Under the pieces are notes generated by a model, which worked only from the letters and a program-made list of their open reading frames with translations, searched no databases and was not told the DNA's origin. A program made the translations under genes and the position numbers. A stretch of 21,033 nt of DNA from a virus: the IMG/VR virus record IMGVR_UViG_3300021963_000780, positions 1 to 21,033 of that record; one strand, given 5' to 3'. Of this stretch, positions 4,891 through 21,033 are shown piece after piece; the first letter of the stretch is position 1; each line of letters begins with the position of its first letter.

Positions 4891-5487
4891 ATGAGGACTG
4901 TTAAGGACTATTTAATCATTATTGTTACCTTCTTTGGATGCGTATATCTTTATGAATATACGCATAAGTCAGATGTTAAGTATGACTTTAGTGATATAAG
5001 GAACTACAACAAGATTAAAGAGATTCATGACACGATTTACAAAACCAATGTGACCACCAGGTGGGTGAAAGGAGACTCGATTCCTTATATTGTACTAGAT
5101 TCTGTACAGAATTACGTACATGATACTGTCTTTGTTTTAAGGGATTATAACACCATAAAAGCCTATTCTGACACTATTAGACAAGATTCTAATACCTTTG
5201 TCATAGAAGATACTATTTCACAAAATAGCATCAAATCAAGGTCTTTTACAGCTCAAATCAAGGAAAAAACAATACTCGTAAAGGAGTTTTATGCTGAAAA
5301 AGCTAAGAATACCCTTTATTGGGGCTTTAGAGGCGATTTTAGCCCTTCTAATGGCTTGGAAGTACTAAGTCCTGGTTTGATGTTAAATGCCAAAAATAAG
5401 GCTCTAATAGGGCTTAATGTAAATATTAATAAAAATAATAATATAGGATACTCAGGTAGCTTATATTTCAAAATAGGTAAAAAATGA
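4891..5487 (+). CDS. Membrane-anchored lysis-region protein (198 aa)
   Basis: The N-terminus has one hydrophobic segment (about residues 7-22, YLIIIVTFFGCVYLYEY) following a short positively charged end, which suggests an N-in anchor with the rest outside the cytoplasm. The middle (30-135) is charged and strand/helix-rich. The last 60 residues (GFRGDFSPSNGLEVLSPGLMLN...) look like amphipathic beta strands. The last four bases overlap the next, holin-like gene (ATGA), and the M15 endolysin lies two genes further on. From topology and position this could be a spanin-like or outer-envelope lysis protein for a Gram-negative host, but there is no lipobox and no recognised spanin motif, so that is inference. 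Proteins of this layout are frequent beside lysis genes in Bacteroidota phages. Confidence 0.65.
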   Translation: MRTVKDYLIIIVTFFGCVYLYEYTHKSDVKYDFSDIRNYNKIKEIHDTIYKTNVTTRWVKGDSIPYIVLDSVQNYVHDTVFVLRDYNTIKAYSDTIRQDSNTFVIEDTISQNSIKSRSFTAQIKEKTILVKEFYAEKAKNTLYWGFRGDFSPSNGLEVLSPGLMLNAKNKALIGLNVNINKNNNIGYSGSLYFKIGKK

Positions 5488-5684
5488 TGAAGTTTTTTAA
5501 AGATATGGTTTCAGGAGGTAGTGAAGTAAGTTCTAAAAGAGTAGCTGGTTTACTAGCATTATTATGTGCAATAATTGGCATCTTTTGTGCGTTATTACCT
5601 CAAGTGGCTTTTGATTCACTATTGATGTATTCTGCAACTTTGTTATCAGCAAGTATAGTAACAACAATTTTTAATAAGAAATAA
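5484..5684 (+). CDS. Holin-like small membrane protein (66 aa)
   Basis: A 66-residue protein with a short charged N-terminus (MMKFFKDMVSGGSEVSSKR), two hydrophobic segments (about 20-38 and 43-63) and a charged end NKK. This is the layout of a class II holin, which permeabilises the inner membrane and lets the endolysin reach peptidoglycan. It overlaps the preceding gene by 4 bases (ATGATGA), so it is probably translationally coupled; ATG at 5484 or 5487 could be used. It lies upstream of a second small membrane protein and the M15 peptidase. No family signature is diagnostic, so holin is inferred from topology and context. Confidence 0.65.
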   Translation: MMKFFKDMVSGGSEVSSKRVAGLLALLCAIIGIFCALLPQVAFDSLLMYSATLLSASIVTTIFNKK

Positions 5685-5685
5685 A

Positions 5686-5880
5686 ATGTCACAATTCAAC
5701 GATTTGAACTCAGATTTAACTCCAATAGGCATCACATTCACAGCTATCTCATGGCTTAATATTTTTGGGTTTGTAAATATCAATCCATTCTTACAGACAA
5801 TCGTTTATTTGATGACTATAGTATGGTTAGGAATGCAGATGTTTGCTTTCGTAAAAAAGCACTACAAGAAAAAGTTCTAA
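5686..5880 (+). CDS. Second holin-like or holin-partner membrane protein (64 aa)
   Basis: A 64-residue protein with a polar N-terminus of about 12 residues, two hydrophobic segments (about 14-34 and 36-56) and a strongly basic tail (VKKHYKKKF). It starts 1 base after the preceding holin-like gene stops and ends 11 bases before the endolysin. Either this gene or the previous one may be the holin, with the other an antiholin or pinholin-type partner. The paired arrangement is common in phage lysis cassettes, but the sequence does not say which is which. Confidence 0.6.
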   Translation: MSQFNDLNSDLTPIGITFTAISWLNIFGFVNINPFLQTIVYLMTIVWLGMQMFAFVKKHYKKKF

Positions 5881-15717: not shown

Positions 15718-16095
15718 TTATTGTAGTGCGTAAATGGTTGAATGTAAATGTTCTATTCTATGCATGACATAGTCATACTTCTCCTTTAAAAAAGGTATTT
15801 GCTTTATGTCTTCAGGAAAGCTGTTTACTGCATGAAGTATTGTAGTTCTATCCCTAAAGAAATAAGGTGCAATCTGCGAAGCTTTTTGCTTGAATGTTGT
15901 GTGTAGGATATAACAAGCCATGTTTCTTGCCATAACCACATCAAAGGTTCTACGTTTGCAAGTAATCTTAGATACAGGGAATCCGAACTCTCTAGCAACC
16001 GAACCAATAACATCAGCATAAACATCTTGTACGATTGTTACTTTTTTAGTCACAAGTAAAGATGATCTTGTATGTCTAAGATTCTGTGTAGTCAT
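15718..16095 (-). CDS. DnaA domain IV-like DNA-binding protein (125 aa)
   Basis: A 125-residue protein from the ATG at 16095 (a TTG eight codons earlier is less likely). Residues about 23-92 match the C-terminal DNA-binding domain of DnaA: a leading helix (VYADVIGSVAREFG), KRRTFDVVMARNMACYIL, a turn, SQIAPYFF and DRTTILHAV (82-90), the counterpart of the DnaA signature GRDHTTVLHA that contacts DnaA boxes. The AAA+ ATPase domain is absent, so this is a stand-alone binding module, as known from several phages and mobile elements. It could bind the phage origin, repress genes or compete with host DnaA. It is encoded about 1 kb from the origin-like region at 17100-17400. The 5' end overlaps the upstream gene by 20 bases. 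Confidence 0.8.
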   Translation of the reverse strand: MTTQNLRHTRSSLLVTKKVTIVQDVYADVIGSVAREFGFPVSKITCKRRTFDVVMARNMACYILHTTFKQKASQIAPYFFRDRTTILHAVNSFPEDIKQIPFLKEKYDYVMHRIEHLHSTIYALQ

Positions 16096-16276
16096 TGATT
16101 TGTGTTTTAAGTATTTCAAGTTTTTTGTTATAGAAGGTTTTTATTAACTCGGTCATCTCATAGTCATTGTTCTTTAGCCTTGTTTCTATAACGTAACGAC
16201 TATAACCTGTAATCTCCATAATCTTCTTCATGTCGCCATATTTGAATAGGCTTTTGTAATCTGTAATCTCTAGCAT
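16076..16276 (-). CDS. Small helix-turn-helix-like protein (66 aa)
   Basis: A 66-residue protein with the pattern DMKKIMEITGYSRYVIETRL (about 15-34): a helix, a Gly turn and a second helix with SRYVIETRLKN, as in small phage DNA-binding regulators, then a long charged C-terminal helix (LIKTFYNKKLEILKTQI). The 3' end overlaps the DnaA-like gene by 20 bases and the gene starts 4 bases after the preceding stop. The HTH call is from pattern only. Confidence 0.55.
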   Translation of the reverse strand: MLEITDYKSLFKYGDMKKIMEITGYSRYVIETRLKNNDYEMTELIKTFYNKKLEILKTQINDYTES

Positions 16277-16883: not shown

Positions 16884-17080
16884 TATTTATTAAGTTTTTG
16901 TAGTCTAGTAAAATAAGTTTTTGGATCGCCTATCTTAACCTTGCTCATATTCTTCTCGTATTCCAATGGATGAATACAGGTTTTTGTCTGATGGTTGTAA
17001 TAGGCTTGTTCGCCTTTGTCAATGATTGTGCCAGTAATACCGCACTTCATCTGATAACTGAGTGTGATTAATTCGTGCAT
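16883..17080 (-). CDS. Small hypothetical protein, first gene of the early run (65 aa)
   Basis: A 65-residue basic protein. The segment MKCGITGTIIDKGEQAYYNHQTKTC (about 11-35) has the pattern of a small beta-rich zinc- or disulfide-type module with C13 and C35, similar to phage and bacterial modules of the type C-x-x-x-G-x-x-I-x-KGE-x-AYY, but only two cysteines are seen. It is the first gene after the non-coding, repeat-rich region, so its upstream sequence should contain the promoter for genes 14852-17080; I find no good match to the Bacteroidota consensus there. Confidence 0.6.
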   Translation of the reverse strand: MHELITLSYQMKCGITGTIIDKGEQAYYNHQTKTCIHPLEYEKNMSKVKIGDPKTYFTRLQKLNK

Positions 17081-17117
17081 GAGTTTTTGTTTTGGTTGTA
17101 AAGTGTAAAATTAATAA

Positions 17118-17252
17118 GTTTTTGGATATGTTTAAAGTTTTTTACAGGTTTTTTGTTAAGGAAATCATAAAAGATTTTTGCTGGATTTTTGCGTACAAGA
17201 TTTTTGCGAGGTTTTTGTGGGGTTTTTGCATAGGGTTTTTGGCAGGTTTTTG
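17118..17252. repeat. Array of helically phased G(A/G)TTTTTG repeats
   Basis: Seven copies of the octamer G(A/G)TTTTTG start at 17173, 17184, 17199, 17210, 17221, 17234 and 17245 (spacings 11, 15, 11, 11, 13, 11). Degenerate copies lie at 17118, 17137 and 17147. T5 tracts repeated about every helical turn are expected to bend DNA. Some GTTTTTG copies in the adjacent genes are A-rich translation starts read from the other strand, but this array has no start codons, so it is not explained that way. It may be part of an origin or a binding-site array. Confidence 0.7.
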
Positions 17253-17253
17253 G

Positions 17254-17294
17254 TGCAACTGATTATTAGTTGCATAGTCAACAATGTTGCAACA
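17254..17294. repeat. Inverted repeats in the origin-like region
   Basis: TGCAACT-GATTATT-AGTTGCA (17254-17274) is a perfect 7-bp inverted repeat with a 7-base spacer. TGTTGCAACA (17285-17294) is a perfect 10-bp palindrome sharing the GTTGCA core. Both lie between the T-tract array and the 14-bp iterons. Confidence 0.7.
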
Positions 17295-17332
17295 TCAATG
17301 GTATAACATCAATGTTAAAACATCAATATTAC
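17291..17332. repeat. Three 14-bp iterons (AACATCAATG core)
   Basis: AACATCAATG at 17291, AACATCAATG at 17305 and AACATCAATA at 17319 have an exact period of 14 bases. ACATAATG follows at 17333-17340 and again at 17355-17362. Short direct repeats of this kind next to bent and AT-rich DNA are typical of iteron replication origins or operator clusters. The rest of the interval to 17480 is AT-rich and shows no gene. Confidence 0.7.
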
Positions 17333-17486
17333 ACATAATGTTTGCAATATCATGACATAATGCACAAAATCAATTCTTTGCCCATTTTTAGCCCGATTCA
17401 GCCATTTTGATATGTTAGTAATGGTATTACATTGTTTTATATTTTTAGTGTCTTAAATTGCCTTATTTTGGCTATTTTTTATAATT

Positions 17487-17502
17487 GGTACATTCTTGTA
17501 CC
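17487..17502. repeat. Short perfect inverted repeat
   Basis: GGTACA-TTCT-TGTACC is a perfect 6-bp stem with a 4-base loop, immediately downstream (minus strand) of the amidotransferase terminator. It could be a second hairpin of the terminator region or a protein-binding site. Confidence 0.5.
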
Positions 17503-17503
17503 T

Positions 17504-17539
17504 AAAAAAGTGAACACCCATATTTCAGGATGTTCACTT
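17504..17539 (-). terminator. Strong terminator of the amidoligase operon
   Basis: On the minus strand a 12-bp stem AAGTGAACATCC/GGGTGTTCACTT (one G-U) with an 8-base loop is followed by TTTTTT. It lies 21 bases after the stop of the amidotransferase gene. Confidence 0.9.
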
Positions 17540-17560
17540 ACACAATAGAAAACCACAATA

Positions 17561-18295
17561 TTATTTTTCCTCAATTACCCATTCACTGCATTTTGTACAC
17601 AATAGCATATCGAAATAACTATCATGCACCATATCGTCTAATGAATGGACTTCATTACAAGATTCGCAATATTCGAATTTATCCTCAATGGAATAGGTAT
17701 TGTTTTTTTTATCCTTTGCATGATAATCCCATTTTTTTGGATAGTATGTATATGAATGTCTTTTGTATGTTTCATTCGAATACCATGCACCATTGTCCCA
17801 TTTTCCCGCATTTTCATTCAGGATATAAAATTGTCCTGTTGCATCCATGAAAACGAATTTATTTCGATTGCCTATTGTATATTCAATCAATGCCATAATA
17901 GTATCATTTTGAACAAAATTGTTAGGCAATCCTTTCATAAATGAATTATTGAAAATTTGCGTATCATTAATATTCGAATGTAAGGGAACATCAATGTCCA
18001 AAATTCCGTTATGGCAAAAATATAGGTCATTATTCACCTTAAATGGATGGCAATTCCTATCATTGATTCCACCACTAGTTGCAATGCGAAAATGCATAAC
18101 AATATTTGAATGTACTTTGTCCGCATGTTTTTTTAGTTTCATAAATTCGTTAAATGAATGCATCTCTTTATTGACAATAATTTTCCCGTTTTCAACATAC
18201 ATGATTCCCGCGCCATCCTTGTTAGCATCCCAACAATTTTTCAATGTTGATTCCTTTATTTTTACGCCCAATGGCTGAATAGCAATAATGCACAT
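17561..18295 (-). CDS. Class II glutamine amidotransferase with C-terminal zinc ribbon
   Basis: A 244-residue protein. Cys2 directly follows Met1 (MCIIAIQ), as required for the N-terminal nucleophile of class II amidotransferases after Met removal. Other motifs fit: DGAGIMYV (28-34), MHFRIATSGG (67-76), NCHPF (81-85), CHNGILD (94-100, with the oxyanion Asn-Gly) and SNINDTQIF (107-115). These enzymes release ammonia from glutamine and hand it to a partner ligase or synthetase. The C-terminus adds a zinc ribbon, Cys210-x2-Cys213 and Cys233-x2-Cys236. The amidoligase gene ends 1 base upstream, so the pair is co-translated and very probably functions together; amidoligase/GAT-II pairs are known from phages. 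The substrate is unknown. Confidence 0.85.
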   Translation of the reverse strand: MCIIAIQPLGVKIKESTLKNCWDANKDGAGIMYVENGKIIVNKEMHSFNEFMKLKKHADKVHSNIVMHFRIATSGGINDRNCHPFKVNNDLYFCHNGILDIDVPLHSNINDTQIFNNSFMKGLPNNFVQNDTIMALIEYTIGNRNKFVFMDATGQFYILNENAGKWDNGAWYSNETYKRHSYTYYPKKWDYHAKDKKNNTYSIEDKFEYCESCNEVHSLDDMVHDSYFDMLLCTKCSEWVIEEK

Positions 18296-18296
18296 A

Positions 18297-19574
18297 TTAT
18301 AAGTTTTTTAAGTTGATGAATTTTTTTAAATTGGAATAGTCGCAAGATGATTCAATATATAATTTGAACCCGTCTAATGTCACATCTTTATTTTCCTTTG
18401 TGTACATGAATAAAGAATGTGCAAATTCAATATTTTTCATGAATGAATTAATATTGAGCGTTCCTCGAAAAATGCGAATTTCAATCGTTTGACTATTTTT
18501 TAGATTGATTGCAACATACCTTTCATTGTTCCCGTCTTTTTTCTTTGCTTTATATATCAATGAGCTATCATTATCATCCTCAATGTTTGCCCATTTTTTA
18601 AGTTTTTCCATTTTCCTTTGTGAAATAGCTACAATGAATTCTTTATTTTCTACAAAGAATTTAAGGAAACGATATAAATGCCATGTAGTAAAATTATTTT
18701 TACTAATGTGAATGTGCATCCCGCATGTATTTGCGTCGTATGAATTATACCCATTTTCAACCAACAATTTAAGAGAATTGGTAAATTCCTTTGTATTTTG
18801 CTGAATGTAGTTAAATGTCAATGGATGCGTAACAATTTCGAACCCGTCCGTTAAACTTCCGTCGGTCTTGAAATACCAATGCTCATGCTCAATCATTCCC
18901 GCCATGTATTTATGTTTTAATCCATTACTATTTTTCCTTTCAACTTCTAACTCAATACCAAAAAATGGCGCATTTTCATTCTCATTCGATAATTTATGGA
19001 ATTTCATTGCAGGTCGGTATGAATAGGAATTTATACATGCTGCATCCAAATCATGGTCATCTTCTTCTTCATCCTCTTCGCTACCTTCTTCGGGTTCATC
19101 ATGCCATTCGCAGTCCGATTCCCAATAATATACATCATCAATATTTCTAATGTCACCATTGCAATCATGTACTAAATTATATCGTTCCATATAATTTGAA
19201 CTAATCCATGATCCATTGTACATATAAATATCATTGCATGGTTCACAATTTTCATCATGCGTATAATATCCGTCGCGTCCTGTTTCCACCCAACTTGCAT
19301 TATCTCTTAATATGTAACACTCGTCCAATTCATCATAAACATAATCATCTTCATCCTCAATCTCATGCAAGAATTCACCTTCAGCAATAATACAATCATC
19401 CTTGAATGCATAATATCCTGAATAAGTATTGATAATACTTTCATAATTATTCCCTTTGTCTAGTTCCTTCCATTCAGGTCTTAAATAGCCATTTTTGATT
19501 GACTTCTCAATCATCTGCATAATTACTCTCAATGTAGTAAATGCCATTGTTTTTTGTTGTGTTGTGTTTTCCAT
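18297..19574 (-). CDS. Amidoligase family protein (glutamine-synthetase-fold COOH-NH2 ligase)
   Basis: A 425-residue protein. The C-terminal half is an Amidoligase_2 domain: FFGIELEVE (205-212), FKTDGSLTDGFEIVTHP (235-251), CGMHIHIS (284-291), a helix with LYRFLKFF, and RYVAINLKNSQTIEIRIFRG (352-371) with the Glu/Arg residues typical of ATP- and metal-binding in the glutamine-synthetase fold. The family joins amino groups to carboxyl groups. The N-terminal half (about 50-160) is an acidic, Cys/Trp/Tyr-rich region with repeated Y-x3-D-x-C motifs (DELDECYILRD, HDENCEPCND, HDCNGDIRN, ESDCEWHDE), followed by a very acidic linker (161-178), probably a binding module. The start may be ATG 19574 or ATG 19547; a 17-bp duplication covers both. 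The partner amidotransferase follows after one base. Confidence 0.85.
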   Translation of the reverse strand: MENTTQQKTMAFTTLRVIMQMIEKSIKNGYLRPEWKELDKGNNYESIINTYSGYYAFKDDCIIAEGEFLHEIEDEDDYVYDELDECYILRDNASWVETGRDGYYTHDENCEPCNDIYMYNGSWISSNYMERYNLVHDCNGDIRNIDDVYYWESDCEWHDEPEEGSEEDEEEDDHDLDAACINSYSYRPAMKFHKLSNENENAPFFGIELEVERKNSNGLKHKYMAGMIEHEHWYFKTDGSLTDGFEIVTHPLTFNYIQQNTKEFTNSLKLLVENGYNSYDANTCGMHIHISKNNFTTWHLYRFLKFFVENKEFIVAISQRKMEKLKKWANIEDDNDSSLIYKAKKKDGNNERYVAINLKNSQTIEIRIFRGTLNINSFMKNIEFAHSLFMYTKENKDVTLDGFKLYIESSCDYSNLKKFINLKNL

Positions 19575-19594
19575 GTCTTGTTGTGTTGTGTTTT
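19554..19594. repeat. 17-bp direct repeat flanking the amidoligase start
   Basis: TTGTTGTGTTGTGTTTT occurs at 19554-19570 and 19578-19594 without mismatch (period 24). The ATG at 19574 lies in the 7-base spacer; a second in-frame ATG at 19547 lies just beyond the other copy. Each ATG is preceded on its strand by the same A/C-rich segment, so the translation start region appears duplicated. Confidence 0.85.
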
Positions 19595-19600
19595 ATAGTT

Positions 19601-19705
19601 TTATTTTTCCTTTATGTGTTCGATTATTGTTTTCCCGAATATTACAACAGGATAGCAAATAAGAATAATCAAAATAAATTCACCCAATGAAATAAATTGA
19701 TTCAT
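19601..19705 (-). CDS. Tiny single-pass membrane protein (34 aa)
   Basis: The frame starts MNQFISLGEFILIILICYPV and ends IIEHIKEK. A hydrophobic helix (about 10-25) is followed by a charged end. Its ATG overlaps the stop of the upstream 36-codon gene (ATGA), and it ends 26 bases before the amidoligase start. The coupled arrangement in the same orientation suggests a real gene of the amidoligase operon. No family is recognised. Confidence 0.55.
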   Translation of the reverse strand: MNQFISLGEFILIILICYPVVIFGKTIIEHIKEK

Positions 19706-19812
19706 GATAATTTAGTTTTAATAGTTAAGTAAATAAATTTCCCTACAAAGAATAAGAATGCCCCAAAGATTGCTAACTGAATTGGGAACAATAATGTGGT
19801 AATAATTTCCAT
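19702..19812 (-). CDS. Tiny single-pass membrane protein (36 aa)
   Basis: The frame starts MEIITTLLFPIQLAIFGAFL and ends TIKTKLS, with one long hydrophobic helix (about 5-24) and a basic C-terminus, suggesting insertion with the C-terminus inside. It overlaps the next tiny gene by four bases. It is the first gene seen downstream of the AT-rich region and probably the first of the amidoligase operon. No family is recognised. Confidence 0.55.
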   Translation of the reverse strand: MEIITTLLFPIQLAIFGAFLFFVGKFIYLTIKTKLS

Positions 19813-19839
19813 GATATAAACGCATTTTGTTTTATAATG

Positions 19840-20060
19840 CAGAATAAAGATATTAAAACATATTGAAACAATTGTAAATAAATGAAAGTATTTTTATTTA
19901 TTTATTCAATGTTTCACCATTGAATTATCAATATACTATTATCCAATGTTCAATATCTAATTTAATATTGAATATAATATACTATATTATAATAGATATA
20001 TACTATTATAATGTTCTTATACTATTATAGTAGTAAGGTATATTAATATAATAGATTCAG
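19840..20060. repeat. AT-rich non-coding segment with repeats
   Basis: About 220 bases are almost pure A/T. TATACTATTAT occurs at 19932, 19999 and 20018, with a variant at 19978. Two inverted repeats are perfect: ATTCAATG/CATTGAAT with a 6-base loop (19904-19925) and TTCAATAT/ATATTGAA with an 8-base loop (19949-19972). It separates minus-strand genes from plus-strand packaging genes, so it must hold divergent promoters; it could also be an easily melted element for replication. No gene is seen. Confidence 0.6.
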
Positions 20061-20330
20061 GCATTTTTACTTTTGCCGTTTGAGTGCCTAGACAATCATT
20101 AAATATTATCCCTAACTTTGGGCAACCATAAACAAGCACAATTTAACATAATGGTAATTATAAGACAAAATGAATATTGATAATCAACAAGTTATATTTA
20201 AGCACATTGGAATATTTAAAAAATTTAGTACCCCCTAGCCTATTTTTTAGCGTTAACAAAATTTTAACACCCTTGTGCCCCCCAATATTCTGATATAAAA
20301 CAATGATTTTAACATTTTTAAACATTTGAG
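20061..20330. other. Non-coding leader region upstream of packaging genes
   Basis: No convincing gene is present in these 270 bases. TAACTTTG at 20113-20120 fits the -7 element on the plus strand but no TTTG is found 19-21 bases upstream, so it is a weak promoter candidate. GTTAA-N7-TTAAC (about 20253-20269) is a small inverted repeat. Blocks CCCCCTAG and GTGCCCCCC interrupt the AT-rich sequence and could pair with G-rich partners in RNA, but no clear stem is seen. Confidence 0.4.
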
Positions 20331-20523: not shown

Positions 20524-20655
20524 ATGATTTTAGCTTTTACTTCATTAGCTGCTTATGAAAGAAGCCTATTAAGGGCTAAGCGGAATGTAAAGAGGTTTAA
20601 GAAGACTAATAAGCTAAGGTCAATAATACGAGACATCAAAATCTGGATAATATGA
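20524..20655 (+). CDS. Small basic protein (43 aa)
   Basis: A 43-residue protein from the ATG at 20524, one base after the previous stop. It starts MILAFTSLAAYERSLLRAKR and continues with a run of Lys/Arg (NVKRFKKTNKLRSIIRDIK), so it is a strongly basic helix. The frame is open further upstream to 20458, but that would overlap the zinc-ribbon gene by 65 bases. Its TGA overlaps the terminase ATG (ATGA), showing coupling. No family is recognised. Confidence 0.55.
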   Translation: MILAFTSLAAYERSLLRAKRNVKRFKKTNKLRSIIRDIKIWII

Positions 20656-21033
20656 ACGCACAATTCAAAGAAATAGCTAAAGAGGCTTTTATCATAGCTT
20701 ATAAGGAGAACTTCGGCAATATCACTATATCTTGTGAGGCTTCTGGAGTCGGTAGGACGCAGTATAAGACTTGGTTGAAAGATGATCCTGAGTTTGCTAA
20801 GAGATTAGCTGAAATCGAGCCTGAGGAGATAATGCTTGACTTTGGCGAACAAAAGCTGATGGAGAGGATTGCTAGGGGTGACACCTTAGCTACAATGTTC
20901 TTACTGAAGACTAGAGGCAAGAGAAGAGGATATATCGAGAAGACTGAGGTTGCTCATGAAGGAGATGTGGTTAAGCAGATTACAGTCAACGTAGTTAAAC
21001 CGAATCAAATTGGAGATATTATGAAACAAGTAG
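20652..21033 (+). CDS. Terminase small subunit-like DNA-binding protein, 3' end missing
   Basis: The frame is open from ATG 20652 to the end of the window (127 codons visible). Residues about 1-45 form a homeodomain-like helix-turn-helix (AFIIAYKENFGNITISCEASGVGRTQYKTWLKDDPEF), here split for reading: helix, I-x-x-A-x-x-x-GV turn, recognition helix with TQYKTWL. Then comes LMERIARGDTLATMFLLKTRGKRRGY (about 70-95), the typical I-x-xGD-x-x-A-x-x-F-x-LK motif of phage small terminases and related phBC6A51-type proteins. The protein would recognise packaging sites and recruit the large subunit, which should lie just downstream. It overlaps the previous gene by four bases. Confidence 0.8.
   Translation, partial: MNAQFKEIAKEAFIIAYKENFGNITISCEASGVGRTQYKTWLKDDPEFAKRLAEIEPEEIMLDFGEQKLMERIARGDTLATMFLLKTRGKRRGYIEKTEVAHEGDVVKQITVNVVKPNQIGDIMKQV

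Follow-up and report, generated by a model that had tools for sequence, protein, structure and literature searches.

In annotations since 2009, phage amidoligases appear as modifiers of the wall or as auxiliary metabolic genes; we found no experiments on them in the literature that we searched. For the amidoligase and glutamine amidotransferase pair of phage phiEco32, a role in wall modification against superinfection, or in conflict, has been suggested (Iyer et al. 2009, as quoted in PMC10580990 and PMC11318856), and the same two activities in another phage have been read as nitrogen metabolism (PMC10945688). The locus described here shares with phiEco32, which we know through these cited predictions, the presence of the pair in a phage. 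Its likeness to mycobacteriophage Marvin and the OM43 phages MEP401/402 extends to both enzymes, their order and strand, their direct adjacency, and their catalytic motifs. However, its amidoligase is only ~22-30% identical to theirs, has lost most of the N-terminal Cys pairs, and follows two membrane peptides, specific to this lineage, that open the operon. MurT and GatD belong to ligase and glutaminase families other than those of our pair. The resemblance is in the working only, that is, an ATP-dependent ligase and a separate glutaminase subunit that amidate a carboxylate, D-Glu of peptidoglycan in their case (PMC3267633). Finally, exchangeable accessory hotspots are known from P2 and P4 phages (PMC9122126). 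Our locus likewise has conserved flanks, a constant position and unrelated cargo between close relatives, but it occurs in another phage lineage, probably in another host phylum, its cargo is mostly of no known function, and it has a constant membrane-peptide head. This combination of a constant membrane-peptide head with exchangeable cargo, of which the amidoligase pair proves to be one, is new.

The window, that is, the whole stretch of DNA that we analyzed, is an entire 21,033-base viral contig from IMG/VR. The operon runs on the minus strand in the order TM1, TM2, amidoligase, amidotransferase, terminator, within the following features.

19702-19812, minus strand: TM1, a single-pass membrane peptide of 36 aa that opens the operon (ORF, homologues, dN/dS)
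19601-19705, minus strand: TM2, a 34-aa single-pass membrane peptide (ORF; ATGA overlap with TM1)
18297-19574, minus strand: Amidoligase_2 (COOH-NH2 ligase), 425 aa (PF12224, AlphaFold model)
18300-18983, minus strand: glutamine-synthetase-like catalytic domain, residues ~198-425 (Foldseek, VIA, invariant residues)
19101-19436, minus strand: acidic beta-hairpin repeat region, residues ~47-158 (secondary structure of the model; site of the relatives' LIM/zinc-ribbon arrays)
17561-18295, minus strand: class II glutamine amidotransferase (Ntn glutaminase), 244 aa (GATase_4, Cys2, fold)
17597-17677, minus strand: zinc-ribbon-like hairpin at the amidotransferase C terminus (CxxC...CxxC, strands in the model, weak Zn_ribbon_4 match)
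17508-17539, minus strand: intrinsic terminator of the operon (hairpin and T run)
19866-20118, no strand: left boundary of the exchangeable block, a conserved non-coding leader/promoter region (identity with other-cargo phages stops here; alignment of relatives)
16895-17274, no strand: right boundary, conserved, with repeated CAAAAA motifs (identity with other-cargo phages restarts here)
20652-21033, plus strand: terminase-small-subunit-like gene, cut by the window end (adjoins the terminase large subunit in the sister phage L202; 326 IMG/VR relatives)

An earlier note on this DNA had described the four genes and the terminator, and all were found at their minus-strand positions. The ORFs likewise confirm the proposed operon of tiny membrane-peptide genes followed by the enzyme pair, with gaps of 26 bases between TM2 and the amidoligase and 1 base between the two enzymes. 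In the terminator, a T run comes after a stem of 12 base pairs (folding z = -4.7). Since hairpin and T run are kept in 15 of 15 relatives examined even though the stem sequences have changed, in some wholly, through compensating changes, we consider the terminator real.

The amidoligase was identified in the earlier note as a member of the Amidoligase_2 family, with a profile match named as the check, and a Pfam search bears this out: the 425-aa protein scores 39.4 bits against PF12224, for a cut-off of 22. No solved structure was matched by sequence search for this protein. The catalytic domain of its AlphaFold model (pLDDT 84, built with 43 homologues) matches YbdK (1r8g) with a Foldseek E value of 4e-5, and a VIA comparison, which covered residues 197-425, gives residues 198-425 a Z score of 11.9 to 1tt4 and of ~10-11 to many glutamine synthetases. 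As modelled, residues 198-425 share the glutamine synthetase / carboxylate-amine ligase fold. In an alignment of 43 sequences, the acidic, His, and Arg active-site residues are all intact, and E208, E210, D238, S240, E246, H287, H289, R320, N357, E365, and R367 are invariant. As for the N-terminal part, which had been put forward as a possible substrate-binding module, it is indeed modular and occupies the site of LIM-like zinc-ribbon arrays in relatives, but amidoligases of the window clade have acidic beta hairpins there, with zero or one CxxC, so that nearly all of these motifs are gone. Bacterial homologues carry six CxxC in 61 of 70 N termini, and one homologue (L133) matches the LIM profile PF00412 above cut-off at its N terminus. 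The acidic repeats may derive from zinc ribbons; the profile comparison aligned the linker alone. We can fairly infer a substrate-binding role for this acidic region.

Class II amidotransferases are marked by a Cys following the initial Met, an Asn-Gly oxyanion motif, and an Arg and an Asp for glutamine. The 244-aa protein, which scores 30 bits against GATase_4 (cut-off 23) in the Pfam search, has C2, R70, N96, G97, and D111 invariant or nearly so, and the catalytic Cys2 is kept in 41 of 43 homologues. Its model (pLDDT 85, built with 43 homologues) displays an Ntn glutaminase fold and matches the GlmS glutaminase 1xff with an E value of 3e-7. Profile, catalytic Cys, and fold thus agree with the class II assignment already made from the sequence. 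As for the zinc ribbon that had also been pointed out, the match to Pfam Zn_ribbon_4 is weak (E 0.068), but its CxxC...CxxC is seen in 27 of the 43 homologues and the model has strands at residues 207-233.

How tightly are the two enzymes associated? The amidotransferase lies directly downstream of the amidoligase in 52 of 67 non-redundant loci and within 700 bp in 5 more, and no other neighbour family recurs at ~58 viral amidoligase loci beyond terminases and within-lineage genes. The two, in that order, consequently form a conserved functional unit. Pairs of these families are expected to release ammonia from glutamine and use ATP to amidate a carboxylate. Here, the amidotransferase would free the ammonia, and the amidoligase would activate a carboxylate with ATP and then amidate it, a predicted chemistry that family, fold, and intact residues make highly probable.

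The cassette has terminase genes, on the opposite strand, on one side and replication genes on the other. No Shine-Dalgarno motif was found upstream of any operon gene, nor of any of the 27 window genes tested, and this absence, together with a GC content of 33%, is the sole basis for suggesting a Bacteroidota host. The phage belongs to a lineage of double-stranded DNA tailed phages whose hosts are probably Bacteroidota. As to other clues to the host, we found no near DNA match among phages and no match for a recombinase-like protein, and helicase matches were too general to indicate one.

We sampled the slot by scanning IMG/VR with the terminase-small-subunit-like protein. This returned 326 relatives, of which 80 were kept, and 67 contigs, including the window and L202, were informative, the contigs being incomplete and some near-duplicates. 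Seven of these 67 carry the amidoligase and the amidotransferase. In 28 others both peptides occur and the enzymes are absent, and a further 28, also free of the enzymes, have a single recognised peptide. Four showed no peptide at threshold, and a closer look revealed the peptide pair in three of them and a TM2-like ORF in the fourth. Membrane-peptide genes therefore head the operon in essentially all 67. What follows them is strikingly diverse: two GP88 types (PF17338), phrog_7247, RusA-like, TreK, DUF7249, and Kyano_Gp96 proteins, and many families of no known function, in many cases followed at some distance by a phage DNA methyltransferase family. PADLOC searches with eight representatives of the cargo and both window enzymes, ten proteins in all, returned one weak methyltransferase match. 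Mapped onto a terminase tree, the presence of the enzyme pair requires at least nine gains or losses, at least four of which are forced by strongly supported branches, and its distribution is unclustered (59 of 500 shuffles equally low). Pairwise comparison placed the exchange breakpoints in the conserved non-coding leader to the left of TM1 and in repeat-rich non-coding DNA to the right of the terminator, so that the exchanged block spans ~17275-19930 in the window, peptides included. With conserved flanks and unrelated cargo among close relatives, the locus resembles an accessory hotspot. The survey also yields a catalogue of alternative cargoes of unassigned function.

TM1 and TM2 are present in all close relatives having upstream sequence, also in a subclade with 53-60% identity, with dN/dS values of ~0.21 and ~0.12, respectively. 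Judging from this conservation, the two tiny single-pass membrane proteins of the earlier note are real genes under purifying selection, of a size (34-36 residues) that ordinary gene callers may miss. They are not an obvious holin, because separate two-segment membrane genes adjoin the endolysin gene at 5484-5880. By synteny, all loci with window-type TM1/TM2 belong to one phage lineage, and more distant phages share the enzyme pair alone. Outside the lineage, a small membrane ORF lies upstream in 5 of 55 amidoligase loci versus 8 of 114 control genes, and we therefore rejected the idea that phage amidoligases generally have such peptides as partners. The expectation that homologous pairs would have the same tiny membrane genes as neighbours is thus not borne out, and the membrane partner proposed for a phiEco32-type envelope system is not conserved across homologous operons. 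Taken together, the slot survey and the control-gene comparison show that the membrane peptides stay constant at the head of a slot whose cargo varies, and that they are no general partner of the enzymes.

A scan with TM2 led to L202, a sister phage in which the peptides are present and a GP88 gene takes the place of the enzymes. TM2 was found without an amidoligase in L202 and in L203, an unrelated-looking phage contig where a TM2-like peptide of 47% identity is encoded at L203:3001-3105; the latter suggests a wider micropeptide family. The first scans had shown a perfect co-occurrence of TM1 and amidoligase, and a specific partnership between them was discarded, since the search had used one allele and the TM2 and terminase scans found diverged alleles with other cargo. 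These diverged alleles are connected by intermediate ones. In some other-cargo phages the peptide matches are weak (E 0.001-0.007), and these assignments rest partly on position and overlap; the weakly matching peptides are short and hydrophobic, and their ORFs keep both position and order. One TM1 allele is exclusive to amidoligase phages in the main clade (7/7 vs 0/48), in keeping with the peptides being part of the exchanged block. Shared exchange is the simplest reading of this linkage, and a functional match between the allele and the amidoligase is possible. Among variants of the head, unrelated acidic ORFs of 60 and 64 aa are inserted between TM2 and the amidoligase in L008 and L009/L010, and the TM2 of L009/L010 keeps its N terminus and has a different C-terminal half.

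The enzyme pair is not confined to phages. Of 76 amidoligase loci on bacterial genome contigs, 48 have an amidotransferase within 500 bp downstream, as judged by the profile used. Many of the loci lie on elements that also encode recombinases, integrases, a relaxase, or a coupling protein, including mobile elements of gut Clostridia. On two Ignavibacteriae contigs (L115:3518-7964 and L116:3722-7775), the pair and a recombinase-like gene occupy a common locus. Beside the pair, one of these has a TIR gene and a separate protein similar to a short Argonaute, whereas TatD- and QueC-like genes, known from the Qat defence system, are found on the other; the locus has the look of a hotspot for defence. 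Among the strong PADLOC matches of 53 neighbours, counted without a background comparison, are pAgo, GajA, QatC, and QatD. As a lead, the bacterial pair is found on mobile elements and, at least twice, beside defence systems.

In our favoured reading, which we think reasonably likely, the block represents one of the interchangeable versions of a cargo cassette, headed by a constant overlapping pair of single-pass membrane peptides and carrying cargo that differs from phage to phage, here a module that would amidate carboxylates in a glutamine-dependent way and act in conflict. The fast replacement of cargo among phages that are otherwise almost identical, the occurrence of the pair on mobile elements of bacteria, and the defence genes close by make such a role (host takeover, counter-defence, or rival exclusion) somewhat more plausible than housekeeping metabolism. 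The best candidate for a substrate, a shade short of probable, would be a macromolecule recognized by the N-terminal module of the amidoligase. TM1 and TM2 probably have a function of their own in the early membrane that does not depend on the cargo. A broader synthesis, in which the pair is a mobile conflict module of phage plug-in slots, conjugative-type elements, and bacterial defence islands that uses glutamine to amidate a protein or nucleic-acid carboxylate, and TM1/TM2 form a hitherto unrecognised, lineage-wide membrane micro-system heading every slot version, is offered tentatively. Because the pair is exchangeable among near-identical phages, the question can be addressed by comparing phages with and without the cassette.

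Of the other readings that we weighed, the one that fares best, at close to an even prospect, has TM1/TM2 as a superinfection-exclusion or membrane-regulatory pair behind which the cargo merely rides. The constant position, the overlap, and the several alleles across the lineage speak for it, as do the separate membrane genes beside the endolysin; however, a wholly separate role leaves the linkage between TM1 allele and amidoligase unexplained. Slightly behind it, and still a serious contender, comes a cytoplasmic takeover or counter-defence enzyme, in which the pair modifies a protein or nucleic acid, of the host or of a rival, to which the N-terminal module binds. Neither enzyme shows a signal peptide or membrane segment on inspection, the N termini of relatives carry zinc-ribbon/LIM-like arrays, and the pair is cargo of a fast-exchanged slot in which a DNA methyltransferase family is found as well. 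Against this, CxxC pairs are nearly absent in the window clade, and no recurring neighbour gene at the ~58 viral loci hints at a substrate.

In line with the published phiEco32 prediction, the earlier note suggested that the peptides may place the enzyme complex at the envelope. In this scheme, they hold it at the inner membrane, where a wall- or lipid-linked carboxylate is amidated so that the host surface changes and other phages are blocked. Glutamine-dependent amidation of peptidoglycan precursors by MurT/GatD (PMC3267633) and the suggested wall modification against superinfection (PMC10580990 and PMC11318856) lend it some credit, and the peptide pair is adjacent in every close relative. 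We nevertheless consider it unlikely. The same peptide pair heads enzyme-less operons in near-identical phages and the enzymes occur elsewhere without peptides, with such ORFs at background frequency, so that an envelope target loses its main argument and retains one point in its favour, the 7/7 TM1 allele of the main clade. Moreover, the amidoligase of the sister clade L036-L044 comes with another peptide allele, the amidoligase-type TM2 of L202 accompanies GP88, and unrelated short ORFs separate TM2 from the amidoligase in L008, L009, and L010. Auxiliary nitrogen metabolism, feeding glutamine nitrogen into metabolites for phage growth as proposed for another phage with both enzymes (PMC10945688), is very improbable, given that the pair is swapped for unrelated genes in near-identical phages, that the relatives' N-terminal module is of a macromolecule-binding type, and that copies sit on mobile elements of gut Clostridia.

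Several minor observations complement this picture. In Clostridioides-type phages, an amidoligase was seen and no amidotransferase was found nearby, and in Geobacillus phage GR1 a gamma-glutamylcyclotransferase adjoins the amidoligase in place of the amidotransferase (L023, L074-L084, and L027 for the two kinds of phage together). Butyricicoccus pullicaecorum DSM 23266 has at least six amidoligase loci on separate contigs (L120, L121, L126, L139, L141, and L158). Finally, non-coding window positions 17135-17327 contain a run of CAAAAA-type repeats, read in the operon sense, and after it three repeats of the AACATCAATG type, conserved in relatives. They lie upstream of the replication-side genes, with a DnaA C-terminal-domain protein encoded at 15718-16119, and this region is possibly a replication origin or a regulatory region.
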